From a virus: a stretch of DNA of 34,116 nucleotides. Positions within the stretch are counted from its first letter, which is position 1. Every line of letters starts with the position of its first letter. The notes beneath the pieces were generated by a model. That model was not told where the DNA came from. It saw only the letters and a list, made by a program, of their open reading frames with translations, and made no database searches. The stretch is from the IMG/VR virus record IMGVR_UViG_3300037502_002931, positions 1 through 34,116 of that record; one strand, written 5' to 3'. Shown piece after piece: positions 7,211 through 14,233 of this stretch. Both the position numbers and the translations under genes were made by a program.

Positions 7211-10105
7211 ATGCGTCATAAGAGGTCATCGGCAGCGACAACTGCCAACAACCTGATGGGCCTCGGTATAGCCGAGGTGTCTAGTTTTTGCAAGCCCCCA
7301 CGAGGTCCGATGCAAGATGTTCTGCGCGCGTTTGCTCTGTATGCGGAGGCCGAGAGGGGCCTCCAGTTCCCTGATGGCGTGATAGCCGATGGCGAGCACC
7401 ACCGGGTGCCGACCTTGTCGAAACCAGACAAGAAGAACGGCTGGTATGTGGTGCACCTCAATGACGGTCCTGGCCAGAGCGGTGTGGTGGTGGCTGTGTT
7501 CAATGACCTCGCGGCAGGTGCGCCGGAGGTGAAGTGGATGAGCACGGCCAACAAGCGGCCGGAGGTGAACCTCGAGGAGGCGACGGCTGCCATGAAGAAG
7601 AAGATAGCGGAGGCCAAGAAGGCCAAGGTGGACAAGGCCGAGGCAGCGGTCAACGATGTGACGGCCGAGATAGCGCGGTCAAAGCCGGTGCAGGCCGCGT
7701 TTGGCTACCTCGAGCACAAGGGCGTTGGTGTGGTGCCTGGACTGTACCGGTCTGGTGCGGTGCTGATGATACCGCTGAAGGATGAGAACCAGCGCATCGT
7801 GAACCTGCAGCGCATCTGGCAGGATGCGGAGGGCAAGTGGCAGAAGCGGTACCAGAAGCATGCGACTCGGGTGGGCACCTACTTTGCCATCAAGGGCAGC
7901 AGCAAGGTGGTGGCCGTGTGCGAGGGGGTAGCGACGGGCATCAGCATCTTCGAGGCGACTGGGTGGACGGTGCTAGCAGCTGGCGACACAACGCAGCTCA
8001 TGGCGGTTGCGAAGATGGTGAGAGCCAAGATGGGTTGGGCTCGCCTCATCATCTGCGCTGACGATGACCGTCACACGGCGGGCAACCCGGGACTGACGAA
8101 GGCTCGGGAGGTAGCAGCTGCCTTGAGGGCCGAGGTACGGGTGCCGATGTTCTCTGACCTCGACAGCCAGGGCACGGACTTTAATGACCTGCATCAGCAG
8201 GAGGGGTTGCCGACGGTGCAACTGCAGCTCGAGGAGGAGATTGCGCCTCTCGATGACGTGCCGCCTCCGGAGGATGAGCCGTATCAGGAGCCGCTCGAGG
8301 AGGAGAGGCCTGCAGGTGAAGAGGCATGGGTGCCAGAGGGCTACCGCTTCATGGAGTCGGGTGCTGTGGTGCGTCTGCCGCCCCCTGACAGCGAGAAGCC
8401 GCCGATGCTGGTGTCACCGCAGCCATTGTGGGTGGCAGGTGTGCGCGTTGACGCGGTAGAGGGCACGCGCTCGATGGTGGTGCGTTGGTGCACGCCGCGA
8501 GCTGGTGAGTTCGGAAGGTTCGATAAGCCGCACCAGATGATAGTGGACCGAGGCACGCTGCTGAATGCCCGCAGCATCGTCGGTCTGGCAAGCAGTGGCT
8601 TCCCGGTGGACTCGACCTGCGCGAGCGAGGTGGTGCTCTACCTTCGGAAGGCCGAGACGCAGTACCTCGCCACGACCGTGCGAGCGGCGCAGGAGACGGT
8701 GGCGAGCGTGACGGGGTGGCATGGGGCCAAGGACTGGACCGCCCCTGCCTTCTTGGTGGGTGAGACGCAGGTAGGAGCGGGCTGCCCTACCTTCGAGAAC
8801 CACAACCCTGAGATAGCGCGTCACATCGGAGCGTTTAGCGTGAGCGGCTCGGCCTCGGCCCAGCTCGCGGTGCTATCGGACATCGTGCAGCACCATGCCG
8901 ACATGGCGACGGTGGTGGCCGTGGCGTTGGCGTCACCGCTGCTGCGAGTGGTTGGCGCGCCTGTGTTTGTCCTGGACATTGCGTGCGAGTCGAGCCGAGG
9001 CAAGACCAAGGCCCTGCAGGTAGCCGCGTCGGTGTATGGGTCGCCGCTGACGATGCGGTCGTGGGATACCACGAAGTTCGCGCTCGAGATGATAGCGAAT
9101 GCGCAGCGCGGTCTGCCGCTCCTGCTCGATGAGACGCAGCGAGCCAGCAAGCCGGAGATGATTCAGCCGACGGTGTATGACCTGTGCAATGCCGAGGGCA
9201 AGATGCGCGGCAAGGCTGACGGTGGTGTGCGGTCGGTGTCTCGGTACGAGTCGCTGGTCATCAGCACAGGCGAGCAGAGCATCAGTGCGTTCGGTGACGC
9301 GGGCGGTGCTCGAGCGCGTATCGTGACGATACAGGGTAGCCCGTGGACGCTGCCCTACCGCGAGAAGCTGGCCGACGCGGTGCGTGAGCTCACGCAGTAC
9401 CAGGTGAGCAGCCTCGACACCTTGGCCGACCACTACGGGCACGCGGGCCGGATGTTTGCCGAGGCTGTGTGCCGCATGAGCGAGGATGAGCGACGTGGCC
9501 TGCGTGCTCGCTACCGTGAGCTGGTGATGGCGCGGTCGGTGTCGGTGGAGGAGATAAGCCCGGGTCACCCCATCGGGTCTCGTTTGGCGGGCTATGTGGC
9601 TCTCATCGACTTGTGTGGCGAGGTAGCCGAGCGCGTGCTGGGGTTGCCGTCGGTGAAGTGGCTGAGCGAAGAGCGGTGGAGGATGATGCTGGGTGCCGCT
9701 CGTCCTGCAGACGTGGCCACGCAAGCCATGGAGCGGTTGATTGCATGGGCATGGGCACGGACCTCGCAGCTGCACGGCCACGCTGACGCTGTGAAGACGA
9801 CGGGCCGTGACTGCATCGGTACCTACTCGGTGGATGCGGTGACGCAGCGGCCGAAGCTGCAGTTCAATCTGGCCGCAGCCAACGACATGCTACGGCAGGC
9901 GGGCTTCCAACCGGGTGCTGTAGCGTCAACATGGGCGGCTCGCGGGTGGCTTGTGGGTGACAAGTCGTCAACTAATTCCAAGGTGGTTAGTGTGGGTGGG
10001 TTCAAGGTGCGCATGTACGAGTTGACCACGAGTGCGCTGTCGCTGCATGTGTGGTCTAGCGACATTGACGCAGCGAACATCTTCGACCCTGACGTTCCGT
10101 TCTAA
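7211..10105 (+). CDS. Primase-helicase: Toprim domain plus DUF927-type ATPase
   Basis: A 964-residue replication protein. The Toprim domain at about 232-330 has the catalytic Glu in VCEGVATG (E238) and the acidic cluster ICADDDRH (D284-D286), followed by DFNDLHQ (323-329). A Pro/Glu linker (about 340-375) leads to a DUF927-like helicase: Walker A-like ESSRGKTK (593-600), Walker B-like LPLLLDE (635-641) and an Arg-rich finger region GGARARIV (698-705). It should prime and unwind at the phage origin just upstream. The start has a strong AGGAGGT site (7199-7205). The extreme C-terminus is FDPDVPF, resembling the tip of bacterial SSB. It is the first confident gene of the early operon. Confidence 0.85.
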   Translation: MRHKRSSAATTANNLMGLGIAEVSSFCKPPRGPMQDVLRAFALYAEAERGLQFPDGVIADGEHHRVPTLSKPDKKNGWYVVHLNDGPGQSGVVVAVFNDLAAGAPEVKWMSTANKRPEVNLEEATAAMKKKIAEAKKAKVDKAEAAVNDVTAEIARSKPVQAAFGYLEHKGVGVVPGLYRSGAVLMIPLKDENQRIVNLQRIWQDAEGKWQKRYQKHATRVGTYFAIKGSSKVVAVCEGVATGISIFEATGWTVLAAGDTTQLMAVAKMVRAKMGWARLIICADDDRHTAGNPGLTKAREVAAALRAEVRVPMFSDLDSQGTDFNDLHQQEGLPTVQLQLEEEIAPLDDVPPPEDEPYQEPLEEERPAGEEAWVPEGYRFMESGAVVRLPPPDSEKPPMLVSPQPLWVAGVRVDAVEGTRSMVVRWCTPRAGEFGRFDKPHQMIVDRGTLLNARSIVGLASSGFPVDSTCASEVVLYLRKAETQYLATTVRAAQETVASVTGWHGAKDWTAPAFLVGETQVGAGCPTFENHNPEIARHIGAFSVSGSASAQLAVLSDIVQHHADMATVVAVALASPLLRVVGAPVFVLDIACESSRGKTKALQVAASVYGSPLTMRSWDTTKFALEMIANAQRGLPLLLDETQRASKPEMIQPTVYDLCNAEGKMRGKADGGVRSVSRYESLVISTGEQSISAFGDAGGARARIVTIQGSPWTLPYREKLADAVRELTQYQVSSLDTLADHYGHAGRMFAEAVCRMSEDERRGLRARYRELVMARSVSVEEISPGHPIGSRLAGYVALIDLCGEVAERVLGLPSVKWLSEERWRMMLGAARPADVATQAMERLIAWAWARTSQLHGHADAVKTTGRDCIGTYSVDAVTQRPKLQFNLAAANDMLRQAGFQPGAVASTWAARGWLVGDKSSTNSKVVSVGGFKVRMYELTTSALSLHVWSSDIDAANIFDPDVPF

Positions 10106-10147
10106 CCAGAAATCGACATCGGGGGGTGAAAAAGTGCTTGCATGAGT

Positions 10148-10176
10148 TTGACAGGTGGTCGAACCCATGTTAGGAC
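10148..10176 (+). promoter_or_regulatory. Possible internal promoter in the 10106-10255 gap
   Basis: The 150 bases between the primase and the next gene hold a consensus TTGACA (10148-10153) with a poor -10 (TAGGAC) at 17-base spacing. The same context, TTGACAGG(A/T)GGT, also occurs at the primase ribosome site (7194-7205), so this copy may instead be a ribosome site for a 21-codon frame starting MLGPFLVG (10167-10232). Confidence 0.25.
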
Positions 10177-10184
10177 CCTTCCTC

Positions 10185-10206
10185 GTTGGCAGCGACAACT
10201 GCCGAC
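10185..10206 (+). other. Hairpin in the leader of the recombination genes
   Basis: GTTGGCAG (10185-10192) pairs with CTGCCGAC (10199-10206), an 8-bp stem with one G-U pair and a 6-base loop, 50 bases ahead of the next start. No T-run follows, so it is more likely a leader or processing structure than a terminator. Confidence 0.35.
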
Positions 10207-10255
10207 CCAACACTGTCACCCGCTCCGCTTGAGGAGCACACCCAGGAGAGAAGCC

Positions 10256-10669
10256 ATGAGGCTTACTGTCGACAATGCCCCTTCCCACTTCCTCAACCTT
10301 GTCTGCACGCTGACCGGTGCAGAGTTCACCGACTGCAAGACGCGCGTCATCGGTGACACCCGCGTTGACCGCATCGTGAGCGACATGACCACCGGCATTC
10401 AGGTTAGCCAGGCGTTCACGCTGCACCTCATCGAGCAGGGCAAGGATGCCGAGGGCGAGCCCATCCACGACATGCGGGTTACCTTCAACCGCACGGTGCG
10501 TCTGCCGTGGCAGCAGGGCAACCGCACTGAGATTGTCAGCACGACCATCTCTGGCCCTGCCACGCTCGACCTCGACCAGCTGGGCCTGCTCATCGAGTTC
10601 TGCATCGACCGCATGCTCGAGCAGGCTGACGCGCTGCGCACCGCTGTGACCGAGGTGGCCTATGTCTAA
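10256..10669 (+). CDS. Conserved-looking early protein, function unknown
   Basis: A 137-residue protein. The start at 10256 is chosen for its AGGAGAG site 5-10 bases upstream; an upstream ATG in frame (10142) would add translated leader. The sequence looks like a mixed alpha/beta protein ending in a helix (LDLDQLGLLIEFCIDRMLEQ, about 103-122). No catalytic motif is visible. Its last 8 bases overlap the exonuclease start (ATGTCTAA), so it is coupled to recombination and may assist it. I do not recognise the family. Confidence 0.7.
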   Translation: MRLTVDNAPSHFLNLVCTLTGAEFTDCKTRVIGDTRVDRIVSDMTTGIQVSQAFTLHLIEQGKDAEGEPIHDMRVTFNRTVRLPWQQGNRTEIVSTTISGPATLDLDQLGLLIEFCIDRMLEQADALRTAVTEVAYV

Positions 10670-11711
10670 CATCATCTTCCCCAACAAGGTCGAGGTCATT
10701 CACACATGGCGGCACGGCAGCAAGGAGTGGCTCATCGAGCGCGGCTTCACGCTCGGTGCGTCCGAGATTGGCAAAGCCCTCGGTGTCTCGCCCTACGGCG
10801 GTCTGCTCTCTCTGGTCATCGACAAGCGCAAGGCTCACATGGGCAACCCCGATGTGGTGAGCAGCGGAGCGATGCAGGATGGTCAGGATGCGGAGGCCAC
10901 GGTGCTGCGCATGGCATGGCGTCGCCTGCAAGCCATCGAGGGCGGTGTGTGCGAGGCTACGGCCACGCCAGAGATGGTGCCGGGCTACCCCGTTGCGCTC
11001 GGTGAGGTGTCTGCCACGCCTGATGCGGTCATCATCGATGCCGAGACGAACCGCGCGGTGGCGGTCATCGAGGCCAAGCTCGACCGCAGCCGTGGCACCG
11101 ACTGGACAGAGGTGCTCGAGAACGGCTTCGGCCACCTGTCAGGAGCGGACCTGCGGCTCAACTACTGGTGGCAGGTGCAGACCCAGCTCTATGTCACTGG
11201 GGTCTCGGTCGGTTACCTGGCTGTGTGGACGGTGTTCGACTTCTACCTCATCGAGATTGAAGCCGACGCTGCAGCAGCCGAGGTGATTGCCTCGGTAGGC
11301 ACGACGGTGATGGCGTGGGTGCGCGACCCTGCCGAACGGTTGCCCGCCCCTACCGACGCTGACGGCCTGCGTACGATTGCCGGCACGGTCAAGCCGGCGA
11401 GCGAGGGCCCCATTGAGGTGGGTGGAGAGGTGGCCGAGGCCCTTGCTGCCTATGTGTCGCTCGGCAAGCGCATTGACGCGCTCGAGGAGGAGCGAGACGC
11501 AGCCAAGCGCGTCATCCTCGAGGCCCACAACCTCGGAGCCAAGATTGCGACGGTGGACGGCATCAAGAGCAGTTTCATTGCCGCGTCGGAGCGCGTGAGC
11601 CTCGACACGAAGAAGCTTGAGAGCGAGCACCCTGAGCTGGTGTCTCAGTACCGCAAGGTGTCGCAGGTGTTGGCCTCGTGCCGGGTGACCGCGCCCCGCA
11701 GCAAGGGCTAA
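10662..11711 (+). CDS. YqaJ-type viral recombinase/exonuclease
   Basis: A 349-residue PD-(D/E)XK nuclease of the lambda Exo/YqaJ kind. Visible motifs are GASEIGKALGVSPY (32-45), the catalytic set ATPDAVI (D121) and VIEAKL (E137, K139), and YWWQVQTQLYVTGV (168-181, Q171), the glutamine helix typical of the family. These enzymes chew 5' ends to leave single strands for the annealase. Residues after about 230 form a coiled coil (EEERDAAKRVILEAH) not needed for catalysis and found in several phage versions. RecT lies one gene downstream, the expected partner. Confidence 0.9.
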   Translation: MSNIIFPNKVEVIHTWRHGSKEWLIERGFTLGASEIGKALGVSPYGGLLSLVIDKRKAHMGNPDVVSSGAMQDGQDAEATVLRMAWRRLQAIEGGVCEATATPEMVPGYPVALGEVSATPDAVIIDAETNRAVAVIEAKLDRSRGTDWTEVLENGFGHLSGADLRLNYWWQVQTQLYVTGVSVGYLAVWTVFDFYLIEIEADAAAAEVIASVGTTVMAWVRDPAERLPAPTDADGLRTIAGTVKPASEGPIEVGGEVAEALAAYVSLGKRIDALEEERDAAKRVILEAHNLGAKIATVDGIKSSFIAASERVSLDTKKLESEHPELVSQYRKVSQVLASCRVTAPRSKG

Positions 11712-11717
11712 GCCCGG

Positions 11718-11748
11718 AGGCAGGTGCAACCCCTGCCGCGCTGCCTCA
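11718..11748 (+). other. Two mutually exclusive hairpins between exonuclease and zinc protein
   Basis: GAGGCAG (11718-11724) can pair with CTGCCTC (11742-11748), or GGCAGG (11720-11725) with CCTGCC (11733-11738). They share bases, so only one can form at a time. The position, in one of the few real gaps of the operon (11712-11785), suggests control of the downstream genes; this is inference. Confidence 0.3.
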
Positions 11749-11785
11749 CCCGCCCCGCCTAGGGGCATTCGAGAAGGAGGATGAG

Positions 11786-12286
11786 ATGAGTGAGAGACGC
11801 AACGAAGAGATGGCCGAGCAGCTCGACCGAATCGAGCACAAGGTGGACTGCCTCAACCGAAAGCTGGACGCGCTCCTAGCAGTCGAGGCCAATGACACCG
11901 AGGCCCTGCGCGAGATGGTGGCTACCGCTCCTGCGGTGGTGCCGAACGAGGACGAGGCCATGCCTGTGCTGACCAACGAGCAGTACGCTGCCATGAGCTG
12001 GCCTAACCGCCTGGACAGACTGGCCGAGGCCAAGTGCCCGCAGTGCGAGCGTCGTGCCTACTCGGCAGCCGCCGTTGAGGAGCAGTTCGGCTACCGCACC
12101 ATGTATGACGGCACGGTGCGCGTGCAGTCGTGGTGCCGTGAGTGCCGCAAGACCGCGCCGACGAAGGCCCCTCTAGTCCCGGTGTGGATTGCGATGAACG
12201 ACGCGCAGCCAGGTGAGGAGTTGTGGGTAAAACATACTTGGAAGAGAGCAGAAGACGAGACCGAGACCGAGCCTAACAACAAGTAG
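11786..12286 (+). CDS. Zinc-ribbon protein with N-terminal coiled coil
   Basis: A 166-residue protein starting at ATG 11786, five bases after AAGGAGG. The first 35 residues form a charged coiled coil (EMAEQLDRIEHKVDCLNRKL). C84-x2-C87 and C117-x2-C120 make a four-cysteine zinc-ribbon pattern (CPQCERR ... CRECRK). The C-terminus is acidic and disordered. It lies between exonuclease and RecT. Zinc-ribbon proteins of this sort usually bind nucleic acid or protein partners, so an accessory role in recombination is plausible, but no family is recognised. Confidence 0.75.
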   Translation: MSERRNEEMAEQLDRIEHKVDCLNRKLDALLAVEANDTEALREMVATAPAVVPNEDEAMPVLTNEQYAAMSWPNRLDRLAEAKCPQCERRAYSAAAVEEQFGYRTMYDGTVRVQSWCRECRKTAPTKAPLVPVWIAMNDAQPGEELWVKHTWKRAEDETETEPNNK

Positions 12287-12313
12287 CCAACCCCCCGCAG
12301 TAAGGAAGAAGCC

Positions 12314-13150
12314 ATGAGCATGCAGATTGCCAAGAACCAGCACCCCGTCGAGGGGTGGCTCTCCAACCCCGACAACTTCAGCAAGGTGGTCAACGCCCTG
12401 CCGACCCACCTCAATGCCGAGCGCATGCGCCGTCTTTACCTGACGGTCTTCAACAACAGCCCGGCTCTCAAGGCCTGCAACCCCGCGTCGGTCATCGGCT
12501 GCCTGCTGAAGTCTGCGCAGCTCGGCCTCGAGCCGGACGGTGGCAAGCTCTACCTCATCCCCCGCGGTGGTGAGTGCACGGTGCAGATTGGTTACCAGGG
12601 CTACATCGAGCTGGCGCGTCGGTCGGGTCAGATTGCCGCCATCGAGGCCAACATCGTGTACGAGAGCGACGACTTCTCGATTGCCTACCACCTGGACAGC
12701 AAGTTCGAGCACCGTCCTAACCTGCGCCGCGCTGCCGATGACAAGGTGCTCGGTGTGTACTGCTATGCCAAGCTGACCTCTGGCGAGCGTCTGTTCACAT
12801 GGATGAGCCATGCCGATGTGGAGCATGTGCGTCGCACGAGCAGCGGCAACAGCTCTACCTGGACGAAGCACTGGGGCGAGATGGCGAAGAAGACGGTGCT
12901 GAAGCGCGCCGCGAAGATGCTGCCCTCTTCGATTGAGATGGCGGCTGCTATCGAGACCGAGGCCGAGCACGAGGGTTACCAGCAGGAGGCCCCTGTGGTG
13001 CAGCACACGGTGGTGACCACGCCAACGGCGGTCGGTGGTGCCCGTCTGCCCGCGCCGCCCCCGCCTGTCGAGGTCTCGGCCGAGGAGGTCGAGGTTGCCG
13101 AGCCAGAAGATTCTGGTGAGCCCGTCAACTTCGATGAGGTGCCGTTTTGA
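12314..13150 (+). CDS. recT: RecT-family single-strand annealing protein
   Basis: A 278-residue annealase. The core (about 20-215) has the family run SVIGCLLKSAQLGLEPDG (59-76), the strand-turn GKLYLIPRGGECTVQIGYQGY (77-97, in parts) and KKTVLKRAAKMLP (192-204). It coats single strands made by the YqaJ exonuclease and pairs them with complementary DNA. The start has AAGGAAG 6 bases upstream. The tail (about 235-278) is a Pro-rich then acidic linker ending NFDEVPF, very like the tip of bacterial SSB, an unusual addition to RecT. The stop overlaps the next gene's TTG start. Confidence 0.92.
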   Translation: MSMQIAKNQHPVEGWLSNPDNFSKVVNALPTHLNAERMRRLYLTVFNNSPALKACNPASVIGCLLKSAQLGLEPDGGKLYLIPRGGECTVQIGYQGYIELARRSGQIAAIEANIVYESDDFSIAYHLDSKFEHRPNLRRAADDKVLGVYCYAKLTSGERLFTWMSHADVEHVRRTSSGNSSTWTKHWGEMAKKTVLKRAAKMLPSSIEMAAAIETEAEHEGYQQEAPVVQHTVVTTPTAVGGARLPAPPPPVEVSAEEVEVAEPEDSGEPVNFDEVPF

Positions 13151-13464
13151 GTAAGTACCCTCACGCTAAGGCGGTCCTGACCGCTCGCATCGTGCAGCTG
13201 CATGGCACCCAGCACCGACTGGCTCAGCTCCTCGGTGAGAGCCGGCAGGTTCTGCTGCAACGTCAGCAGGCAGCCTGCGAGCACTCCAACAACCACCCAT
13301 GGTGGTGCAACCTGCTCATCATGGAGTCTACCTGGCTCCTCGAGGAGGTTCGGGAGCGTCCGAGCCCTAACCCGACGCTGGTGGCTGCGGCCGTCGAGCT
13401 CAACGAGAACACCTACAACCAGTACCGCCGTGTTGGCGGTCGCCCCCGCAAGGTGAAGCCATGA
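13147..13464 (+). CDS. Small early protein with a possible helix-turn-helix
   Basis: A 105-residue protein read from a TTG that overlaps the RecT stop (TTGA), a coupling arrangement that supports the unusual start. Residues 20-36 (TQHRLAQLLGESRQVLL) look like a helix-turn-helix, and the C-terminus is basic (RVGGRPRKVKP). A second helical stretch with NENTYNQYRR (about 89-98) precedes the basic tail. It may bind DNA; no family is recognised. The end overlaps the next ATG as ATGA. Confidence 0.65.
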   Translation: MSKYPHAKAVLTARIVQLHGTQHRLAQLLGESRQVLLQRQQAACEHSNNHPWWCNLLIMESTWLLEEVRERPSPNPTLVAAAVELNENTYNQYRRVGGRPRKVKP

Positions 13465-13859
13465 GCAACGAACAGTTAGAGAAACTCGAACAGTTGGCCC
13501 GCCGCGCCGTGGCGTGCAAGCGGTGGCGGTGGATGCCGGGGATGATGACCTGCGGCGGGTGGCGAGTTATCGCCATTTCTGAGGGCAGGTCTGTCTGTGC
13601 AAAGTACGATTTCGTTGTAATCTCGCCAGAGCATGATGCCATCCCCGACCTGACCGACCCCGCCACCATTGGTTGCCTCTTTGCCCTTGTGCGGGAGGCA
13701 TACGGTCAACCCACGATGTCGTGCTTGTTTGACCATGCGGATGCAACGTGGTCTGAATACCCGTGGGATGTCAAACTAGTTGGCGTGCGAGTTGTCATCG
13801 GAGGATGCGGCCCCACCGAAGCCGCCGCCCTCGTTGCCGCACTGGAGGCCGCACCATGA
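13461..13859 (+). CDS. Small protein with repeated C-terminal tail, unknown
   Basis: A 132-residue protein of a type common in phage early regions (short N-terminal helix, GGWRVIAISEGRSV, domain with Trp/Cys, ending in a helix). It resembles the widespread class of small phage proteins that share an N-helix and a C-terminal helix ending in leucines, but I cannot assign a function. Its last 11 residues, AALVAALEAAP, and the gene junction are repeated exactly in the following gene (41-bp direct repeat). Codons are less GC-rich at the third position than in neighbours (TTA, AAA, GAA, GTT), a sign of separate origin. Confidence 0.65.
   Translation: MSNEQLEKLEQLARRAVACKRWRWMPGMMTCGGWRVIAISEGRSVCAKYDFVVISPEHDAIPDLTDPATIGCLFALVREAYGQPTMSCLFDHADATWSEYPWDVKLVGVRVVIGGCGPTEAAALVAALEAAP
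13819..13859. repeat. 41-bp direct repeat, copy 1 (gene-junction repeat)
   Basis: Bases 13819-13859 and 14193-14233 are identical over 41 bases. Each copy encodes the C-terminal AALVAALEAAP, the stop, and the overlapping ATG of the next gene. Recombination between them would remove exactly one gene and leave the coupling intact. Confidence 0.9.
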
Positions 13860-14233
13860 GTAACATTCCTAGACTGACTAATCCCGAAGCAATCGAACAA
13901 CTGCGAAAGTTTGTTGACGATGCGTACCGAGCGTCGAAACAGGCGCAGGATGCCGCGCAAGAGGCTTCGCGTGTCGCGCTTGATGCGAACCGCCCTTCGG
14001 CAAAAGAGGTCAATGAGGCTTTGGATGCTGCCTACGCTGCAAGAACGGCTGCGTCAGAGGCGCAGCGTTACGCGAACAGGCTGATTGCCGAGTTGGATAA
14101 CCTATTCTTCGCTGTGAGAATGGGCCATTTGGCGGCTGAAGATGCAGTGAAGAAGATGGAGGCGGCGCTTTCGGCTGCTACTGCTGCTGAACAAGCCGCC
14201 GCCCTCGTTGCCGCACTGGAGGCCGCACCATGA
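13856..14233 (+). CDS. Ala-rich helical protein in a repeat-bounded cassette
   Basis: A 125-residue protein from the ATG at 13856 (overlaps the previous TGA). It is almost wholly helical and Ala-rich, with heptad-like runs (ASKQAQDAAQEASRVALDA; AAYAARTAASEAQRYANRL), so a coiled-coil or bundle is likely. The last 11 residues copy those of the preceding protein through the 41-bp repeat. Third-position use (GAT, GCG, AAA, TTT, GTT) differs from the GAC/AAG/GTC-rich neighbours, suggesting arrival from another genome. Function unknown. Confidence 0.65.
   Translation: MSNIPRLTNPEAIEQLRKFVDDAYRASKQAQDAAQEASRVALDANRPSAKEVNEALDAAYAARTAASEAQRYANRLIAELDNLFFAVRMGHLAAEDAVKKMEAALSAATAAEQAAALVAALEAAP
14193..14233. 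repeat. 41-bp direct repeat, copy 2
   Basis: Second copy of the junction repeat, identical to 13819-13859. It ends at the stop of the Ala-rich gene and contains the ATG of the coiled-coil gene at 14230. The bases on either side differ between copies, so the repeat limits are sharp. Confidence 0.9.

Follow-up and report, generated by a model that had tools for sequence, protein, structure and literature searches.

The virus record IMGVR_UViG_3300037502_002931 of IMG/VR was analyzed over its whole length of 34,116 nucleotides (hereafter the window), and it carries a plus-strand module in which two proteins, a primase-helicase and a RecT annealing protein, end in a short motif resembling the C-terminal tip (SSB-Ct) of bacterial single-stranded DNA-binding protein (SSB). 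The primase-helicase gene occupies positions 7211 to 10105, and its product matches a primase/helicase entry in PHROG (3.7e-66). Toprim_3 (PF13362, residues 234–332, 2e-11) and DUF927 (PF06048, residues 453–677, 3.6e-32) domains were both recognized by Pfam, together with a weak HTH_56 match that falls below the cut-off (PF18662, residues 834–938, 2e-4). The protein ends in AANIFDPDVPF, with its stop at 10105 and the SSB-like tip NIFDPDVPF at positions 10076 to 10102. The RecT gene follows at 12314 to 13150; its product belongs to the RecT family by a score of 173 bits against PF03837 (5.8e-51; curated cut-off 24), matches PDB entry 7ub2 (1.6e-16), and ends in GEPVNFDEVPF, with its stop at 13150 and the tip NFDEVPF at 13127 to 13147. 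These translated C-termini agree with a first-pass annotation made from the sequence alone, which had reported the ends FDPDVPF and, after an acidic linker, NFDEVPF; the lower coordinate given there, 10085, falls inside the primase tip, and the RecT tail spans 12971 to 13147.

The SSB of Escherichia coli ends in MDFDDDIPF. Like this tip, those in the window consist of acidic residues and then x-Pro-Phe-COOH. In SSB the motif terminates a disordered linker, and such a linker is predicted in the window for RecT only (residues 220–278), whose end, NFDEVPF, closely resembles that of SSB. Pro-Phe are the last two residues of both window proteins and of every relative with a complete end, and acidic residues directly precede them, as D-E-V-P-F after an acidic tail in RecT and as a weaker D-P-D-V-P-F in the primase-helicase. 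Among all open reading frames (ORFs) of at least 30 residues in the six frames of the window, only these two end in Pro-Phe. The bearers differ from the bacterial case, in which the tip sits on an OB-fold SSB, whereas here the carriers are a primase-helicase with DUF927 and an annealase of the RecT family.

An AlphaFold2 model of RecT, built with 58 RecT sequences, is confident for the core to approximately residue 219. Beyond this point there is no secondary structure, and 10-residue means of the predicted local distance difference test (pLDDT) range from 38 to 57 from residue 221 onward. Because of this lack of structure and low confidence, the tip is predicted to terminate a disordered tail of about 59 residues, which is acidic and proline rich (residues 220–278, positions 12971 to 13147). 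SSB itself has the same layout, with its tip at the end of a disordered tail (PMC10018359).

Both tips are a real feature of these proteins and are conserved in sequence. Among six RecT relatives with 88 to 99% identity, DEVPF is exact in all six, while the stretch preceding it differs among them and includes a three-residue indel. Likewise, every complete primase end among the relatives (L001, L003, L004, L005, and L006) retains DVPF, in the forms FDPDVPF, FGGDVPF, FGDDVPF, FGPDVPF, and FAGDVPF. Primase relatives at 78% identity account for FGDDVPF, FAGDVPF, and FGGDVPF, and one more, partial relative has FGPDVPF; the codons for the D and V of this tip vary synonymously. Wider scans for more distant primase and exonuclease relatives returned the same contigs only. 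Thus, the comparison of C-termini that the first-pass annotation had proposed came out in favor of conservation, as no close homologue with a complete end lacks the tip.

By comparison, the tip is rare in RecT proteins at large. A set of 145 distinct RecT C-termini, drawn from phages, viral contigs, and bacterial genomes, contains it in the clade of the window (seven) and in only two of the approximately 138 others, one from Xenophilus (L151, ELPF) and one from Paenibacillus (L156, GELPF). Four further C-termini are near-misses, with Pro-Phe one or two residues before the end, and a divergent RecT ending in DDEVPF (L299) was added by a later tip scan. An SSB-like tip is therefore not a feature of the PF03837 family as a whole but was probably acquired by RecT proteins more than once. 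The first-pass annotation had left open how widespread such tips are in RecT proteins; they are rare there, but on unrelated phage replication families they are more widespread than it supposed.

Gene-like ORFs around RecT genes provide a background for these ends. In this set of 3694 ORFs, 36 end in Pro-Phe and 28 of the 36 have two or more acidic residues just before, whereas twelve other two-residue endings occur 3 to 16 times each, with acidic residues in four cases or fewer. Excluding the clade of the window, the acidic Pro-Phe ends are mostly those of small SSB-like proteins or of SSBs matching PF00436 or phrog_44. About five are neither, and these include the Paenibacillus RecT and a DnaD-like helicase loader (L144). 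The loader gene, at 9839 to 10738 of its locus, adjoins RecT in Bhargavaea, and its product ends in TDDSDLPF. Small proteins of 96 to 106 residues near RecT genes (PHROG_24909/36980) carry DDDIPF-type tips and may be minimal SSBs (L036 12437–12754, L080 13807–14109, L090 14904–15191, and L143 2877–3164). Because an acidic Pro-Phe end on a non-SSB protein is estimated at about 0.1% per gene, two such ends among approximately 38 genes, both on replication proteins, would be expected by chance roughly once in 1000, before conservation is considered; note that this estimate rests on a gene set from a crude caller.

We also scanned exact DNA patterns in 2.9 million viral contigs. The DEVPF-stop and DDIPF-stop patterns each yielded at least 120 stretches, and among the matches listed, 115 of 120 and 119 of 120, respectively, are in-frame ends of ORFs of at least 60 residues. 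The permuted control DEPVF-stop gave 40 stretches in the whole collection, of which 11 are in-frame ends, several of them mutually identical. The 234 tip-bearing ORFs among the matches listed form 68 single-linkage clusters. By Pfam, the DEVPF carriers among these matches include 17 SF2 helicases, 11 SSBs, 11 AEP-TOTE primases, 6 DUF6511 proteins, 3 proteins of PrimPol-D5 type, 3 DUF669 proteins, 2 RecT proteins, and 1 ERF protein. The corresponding DDIPF carriers include 18 SSBs, 5 SF2 helicases, 4 DUF669 proteins, 2 AEP-TOTE primases, 2 Pam3_Gp34 proteins, 1 DnaB, and 1 ERF protein; exonucleases with a Cas4 domain are also among the tip carriers. Both scan sets contain near-duplicates, and the carrier counts therefore show breadth rather than frequency. 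From these sequences, SSB-type tips are present on non-SSB phage replication proteins of many unrelated families. In the open-access literature, to which our search was confined, we found no description of SSB-like tips common to phage helicases, primases, and annealases.

A pair of adjoining genes in other phages, encoding an AEP-TOTE primase (PF22548) and a Pam3_Gp34-like protein (PF23977/phrog_2402), is a close sequence-level parallel to the primase-helicase and RecT of the window, as each of two replication-module genes bears a tip. Usually just one member of each pair had been picked by the scan pattern, and yet the tip is present on 12 of 12 distinct primase ends and on 10 of 10 distinct complete ends of the Pam3_Gp34-like partners. 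The two members of a pair often have tips of different letters, and those of the partners include DENIPF, EQADVPF, SEDLPF, DNEIPF, VDDIPF, and KDEVPF. The parallel is not complete, because the primase type differs from that of the window and the partner is a protein of unassigned function instead of RecT. Representatives of this partner lie at L199 9922–10701, L226 6352–7128, L290 1862–2605, L293 9798–10556, L372 4490–5332, and L429 7840–8637, and it is perhaps a single-stranded DNA (ssDNA)-binding or loading partner of the primase.

Modules with SF2 helicases carry the tip in different positions. In distinct cases, it is on the helicase itself (19), on an ORF within 250 bp (13), or elsewhere (6), and the 13 nearby cases compare with 3.7 expected for a random ORF of the locus. 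This distribution between the helicase and the adjacent gene suggests that the presence of a tip in the module counts and that the subunit bearing it matters less. Small proteins adjoining SF2 helicases bear the tip where the helicase has none at L231, L241, and L256 (DUF6511), as do small cysteine-containing ORFs adjoining tipless SF2 helicases at L201, L213, L244, L264, L221, and L238.

We then consider whether the window encodes an SSB of its own. No match to PF00436, the OB-fold SSB family, was found in the window or six related records, and none to phrog_44 (SSB) was found in four records, a search in which the controls worked. The first-pass statement that no SSB gene is recognizable was thus borne out. 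A family A polymerase (PF00476) was likewise not found in the window and its relatives (four records). These negatives apply to records that are classed as linear and are possibly fragments. Searches for the phage SSB families Enc34/DUF2815, DUF669, and PF24083 also gave no match, but the controls gave none either, which makes this result weak. For the host, the terminase of the window has only distant matches (Thermus, Tunturiibacter, and other phages, at 33% identity or less), a second large late gene searched for host clues gave no match, and no tRNAs were found in the window.

Between the two tip-bearing genes lie three others on the same strand, none with a tip. The first (10256 to 10669) encodes a 137-residue protein of unassigned function that lacks a Pfam or PHROG match. 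It was considered as a hidden SSB, but this is unsupported by its AlphaFold2 model, which has a mean pLDDT of 53 and no significant Foldseek match, or by any significant PDB sequence match. This low-confidence model contains a helix, four strands, and a long helix, and its weak Foldseek matches include levivirus coat proteins (AP205, PQ-465, ESE001, and Qbeta), which lack sequence support and may be due to chance. The second gene (10662 to 11711) encodes a YqaJ/RecE-like exonuclease (PF09588, 3e-7; phrog_434, 3.4e-34) ending in PRSKG. The third (11786 to 12286) encodes a 166-residue protein in a slot between the exonuclease and RecT that is hypervariable in sequence and length among relatives (L003–L006), while the flanking genes are 78 to 99% identical. 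Downstream, a gene for a 105-residue protein that is conserved in relatives (13147 to 13464) begins with a TTG codon overlapping the RecT stop. Farther along, an exact 41-nucleotide direct repeat at 13819–13859 and 14193–14233 forms the 3′ ends of two adjoining genes, both of which end in AAALVAALEAAP and in an ATGA overlap.

Taken with the model of the RecT tail, these sequence comparisons incline us, by a modest margin of confidence, to the view that the primase-helicase and RecT each end in a functional mimic of SSB-Ct. The recruitment of host PriA, RecO, exonuclease I (ExoI), or polymerase parts is a plausible mechanism. Partner proteins would receive each tip in their SSB-Ct pocket, and these partners are most likely encoded by the host because neither a phage SSB nor a family A polymerase was found. 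RecT coats ssDNA and would take the place of SSB there; with a tip on each subunit, DNA covered in this way would stay accessible to readers of SSB tails, for instance RecO, PriA, ExoI, and RecQ. At a new primer, the tip of the primase-helicase would attract the restart primosome or polymerase assembly of the host. The readers named here are candidates from established knowledge of SSB tails and not results of this analysis. The E. coli SSB tip is read by at least 17 proteins, and Pro-Phe are its most conserved residues, with mutation of the Pro breaking partner binding (PMC10018359). The SSB-tail mimicry proposed in the first-pass annotation is partly supported: the tips are SSB-like and conserved, and no SSB is recognizable. 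The recruitment of host partners is a plausible account, with a phage partner or self-regulation as less probable ones.

Several points weigh against SSB-Ct mimicry directed at host proteins. RecT-type annealing proteins bind SSB tails themselves, and the RecT tip could consequently act in cis. Of the last seven residues of the primase-helicase, only two are acidic. In addition, caution comes from Deinococcus DdrB, the only direct precedent for SSB-like tails that we found in the literature searched, because its SSB-like motif was reported not to be needed for radioresistance (PMC3834827). DdrB is a cellular protein of unrelated fold, unlike the carriers in the window (PMC3834827), and the Pfam search of both window proteins, with no test of the DdrB fold itself, showed no DdrB family. 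With respect to the known RecT family (PDB 7ub2), the window protein has the common core by Pfam and PDB matches but differs from nearly all other RecT proteins examined in having a tip.

The reader of the tips might instead be encoded by the phage itself, as a protein that has an SSB-Ct-like pocket and would hold the primase-helicase and RecT together; candidates include the YqaJ exonuclease and the small intervening proteins. The exonuclease gene is indeed located between the two tip-bearing genes of the module, and the occurrence elsewhere of the tip on either of two adjacent genes is as expected for a local complex. There is also a precedent in phage HK620, whose SSB tail, NDYPPF, is needed by the phage annealing protein Sak4 to bind SSB-coated DNA, so that a phage protein reads the SSB tail of its own phage (PMC5928155); there, the annealase reads a tip carried by the SSB, whereas in the window the annealase itself carries the tip. 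However, the exonuclease and the 137-residue protein lack a known SSB-Ct-binding fold, and the same tip occurs in phages with quite different neighbors, which favors a reader common to hosts. We consequently regard a phage reader as unlikely, though it deserves more weight than the explanations that follow.

Rather improbable is self-regulation, wherein the acidic tail would fold back and either vie with ssDNA for the DNA-binding site of the same protein or block the SSB-tail site of RecT itself. The RecT tail is acidic and predicted to be disordered, and in E. coli SSB, DNA and the tips can be competitors for the DNA-binding domain (PMC10018359), but such regulation leaves unexplained both the exact Pro-Phe-COOH end and the recurrence of this end on proteins with unrelated folds (helicases, primases, and nucleases).

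A very small likelihood attaches to the RecT end being a by-product of the start of the next gene, as GAGGTG within the tip codons (13136 to 13141) resembles a Shine-Dalgarno sequence and the TTG overlaps the stop. The overlap itself is real in the window and might confound the reading of codon conservation in the tip. Among the matches listed, a possible start near the stop occurs in 93 of 115 DEVPF ORFs versus 64 of 119 DDIPF ORFs; the DEVPF scan therefore carries some overlap bias. Nevertheless, only one of 44 ORFs with GAGGT at that place, in loci not chosen for tips, ends in Pro-Phe. The primase-helicase ends in DVPF with other codons and no overlapping gene, and the DDIPF scan, which is free of GAGGT, gives overlapping families. 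A Shine-Dalgarno artifact is thus made unlikely as the origin of the RecT tip. Equally hard to credit is a decoy function, in which phage proteins with tips would displace host SSB from its partners by competition and shut down host replication or repair, because the carriers are working replication enzymes and not an abundant, dedicated small protein, even though RecT is expected to be oligomeric and hence multivalent for tips.

Under SSB-Ct mimicry, a broader proposal, which we hold to be evenly poised, is that SSB-type tips serve as a portable address tag. Phages would graft it onto whichever member of a replication or recombination module suits, be it a nuclease, annealase, helicase, primase, loader, or small accessory protein. 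Over evolution the tag would shift between adjacent genes, and it would draw host SSB partners to phage DNA without, or besides, a phage SSB, and the window would be one doubly tagged module. Should the tips function in the manner of SSB tails, a five-residue rule would predict which phage proteins plug directly into the host SSB interaction hub, and it would reach many proteins without an assigned function, such as those of PF23977, PHROG_24909, and DUF6511. It would also make it simpler to test why the activity of some annealing proteins is limited to certain hosts, and it would account for the way in which host machinery reaches the DNA of a phage that has no recognizable SSB or family A polymerase.

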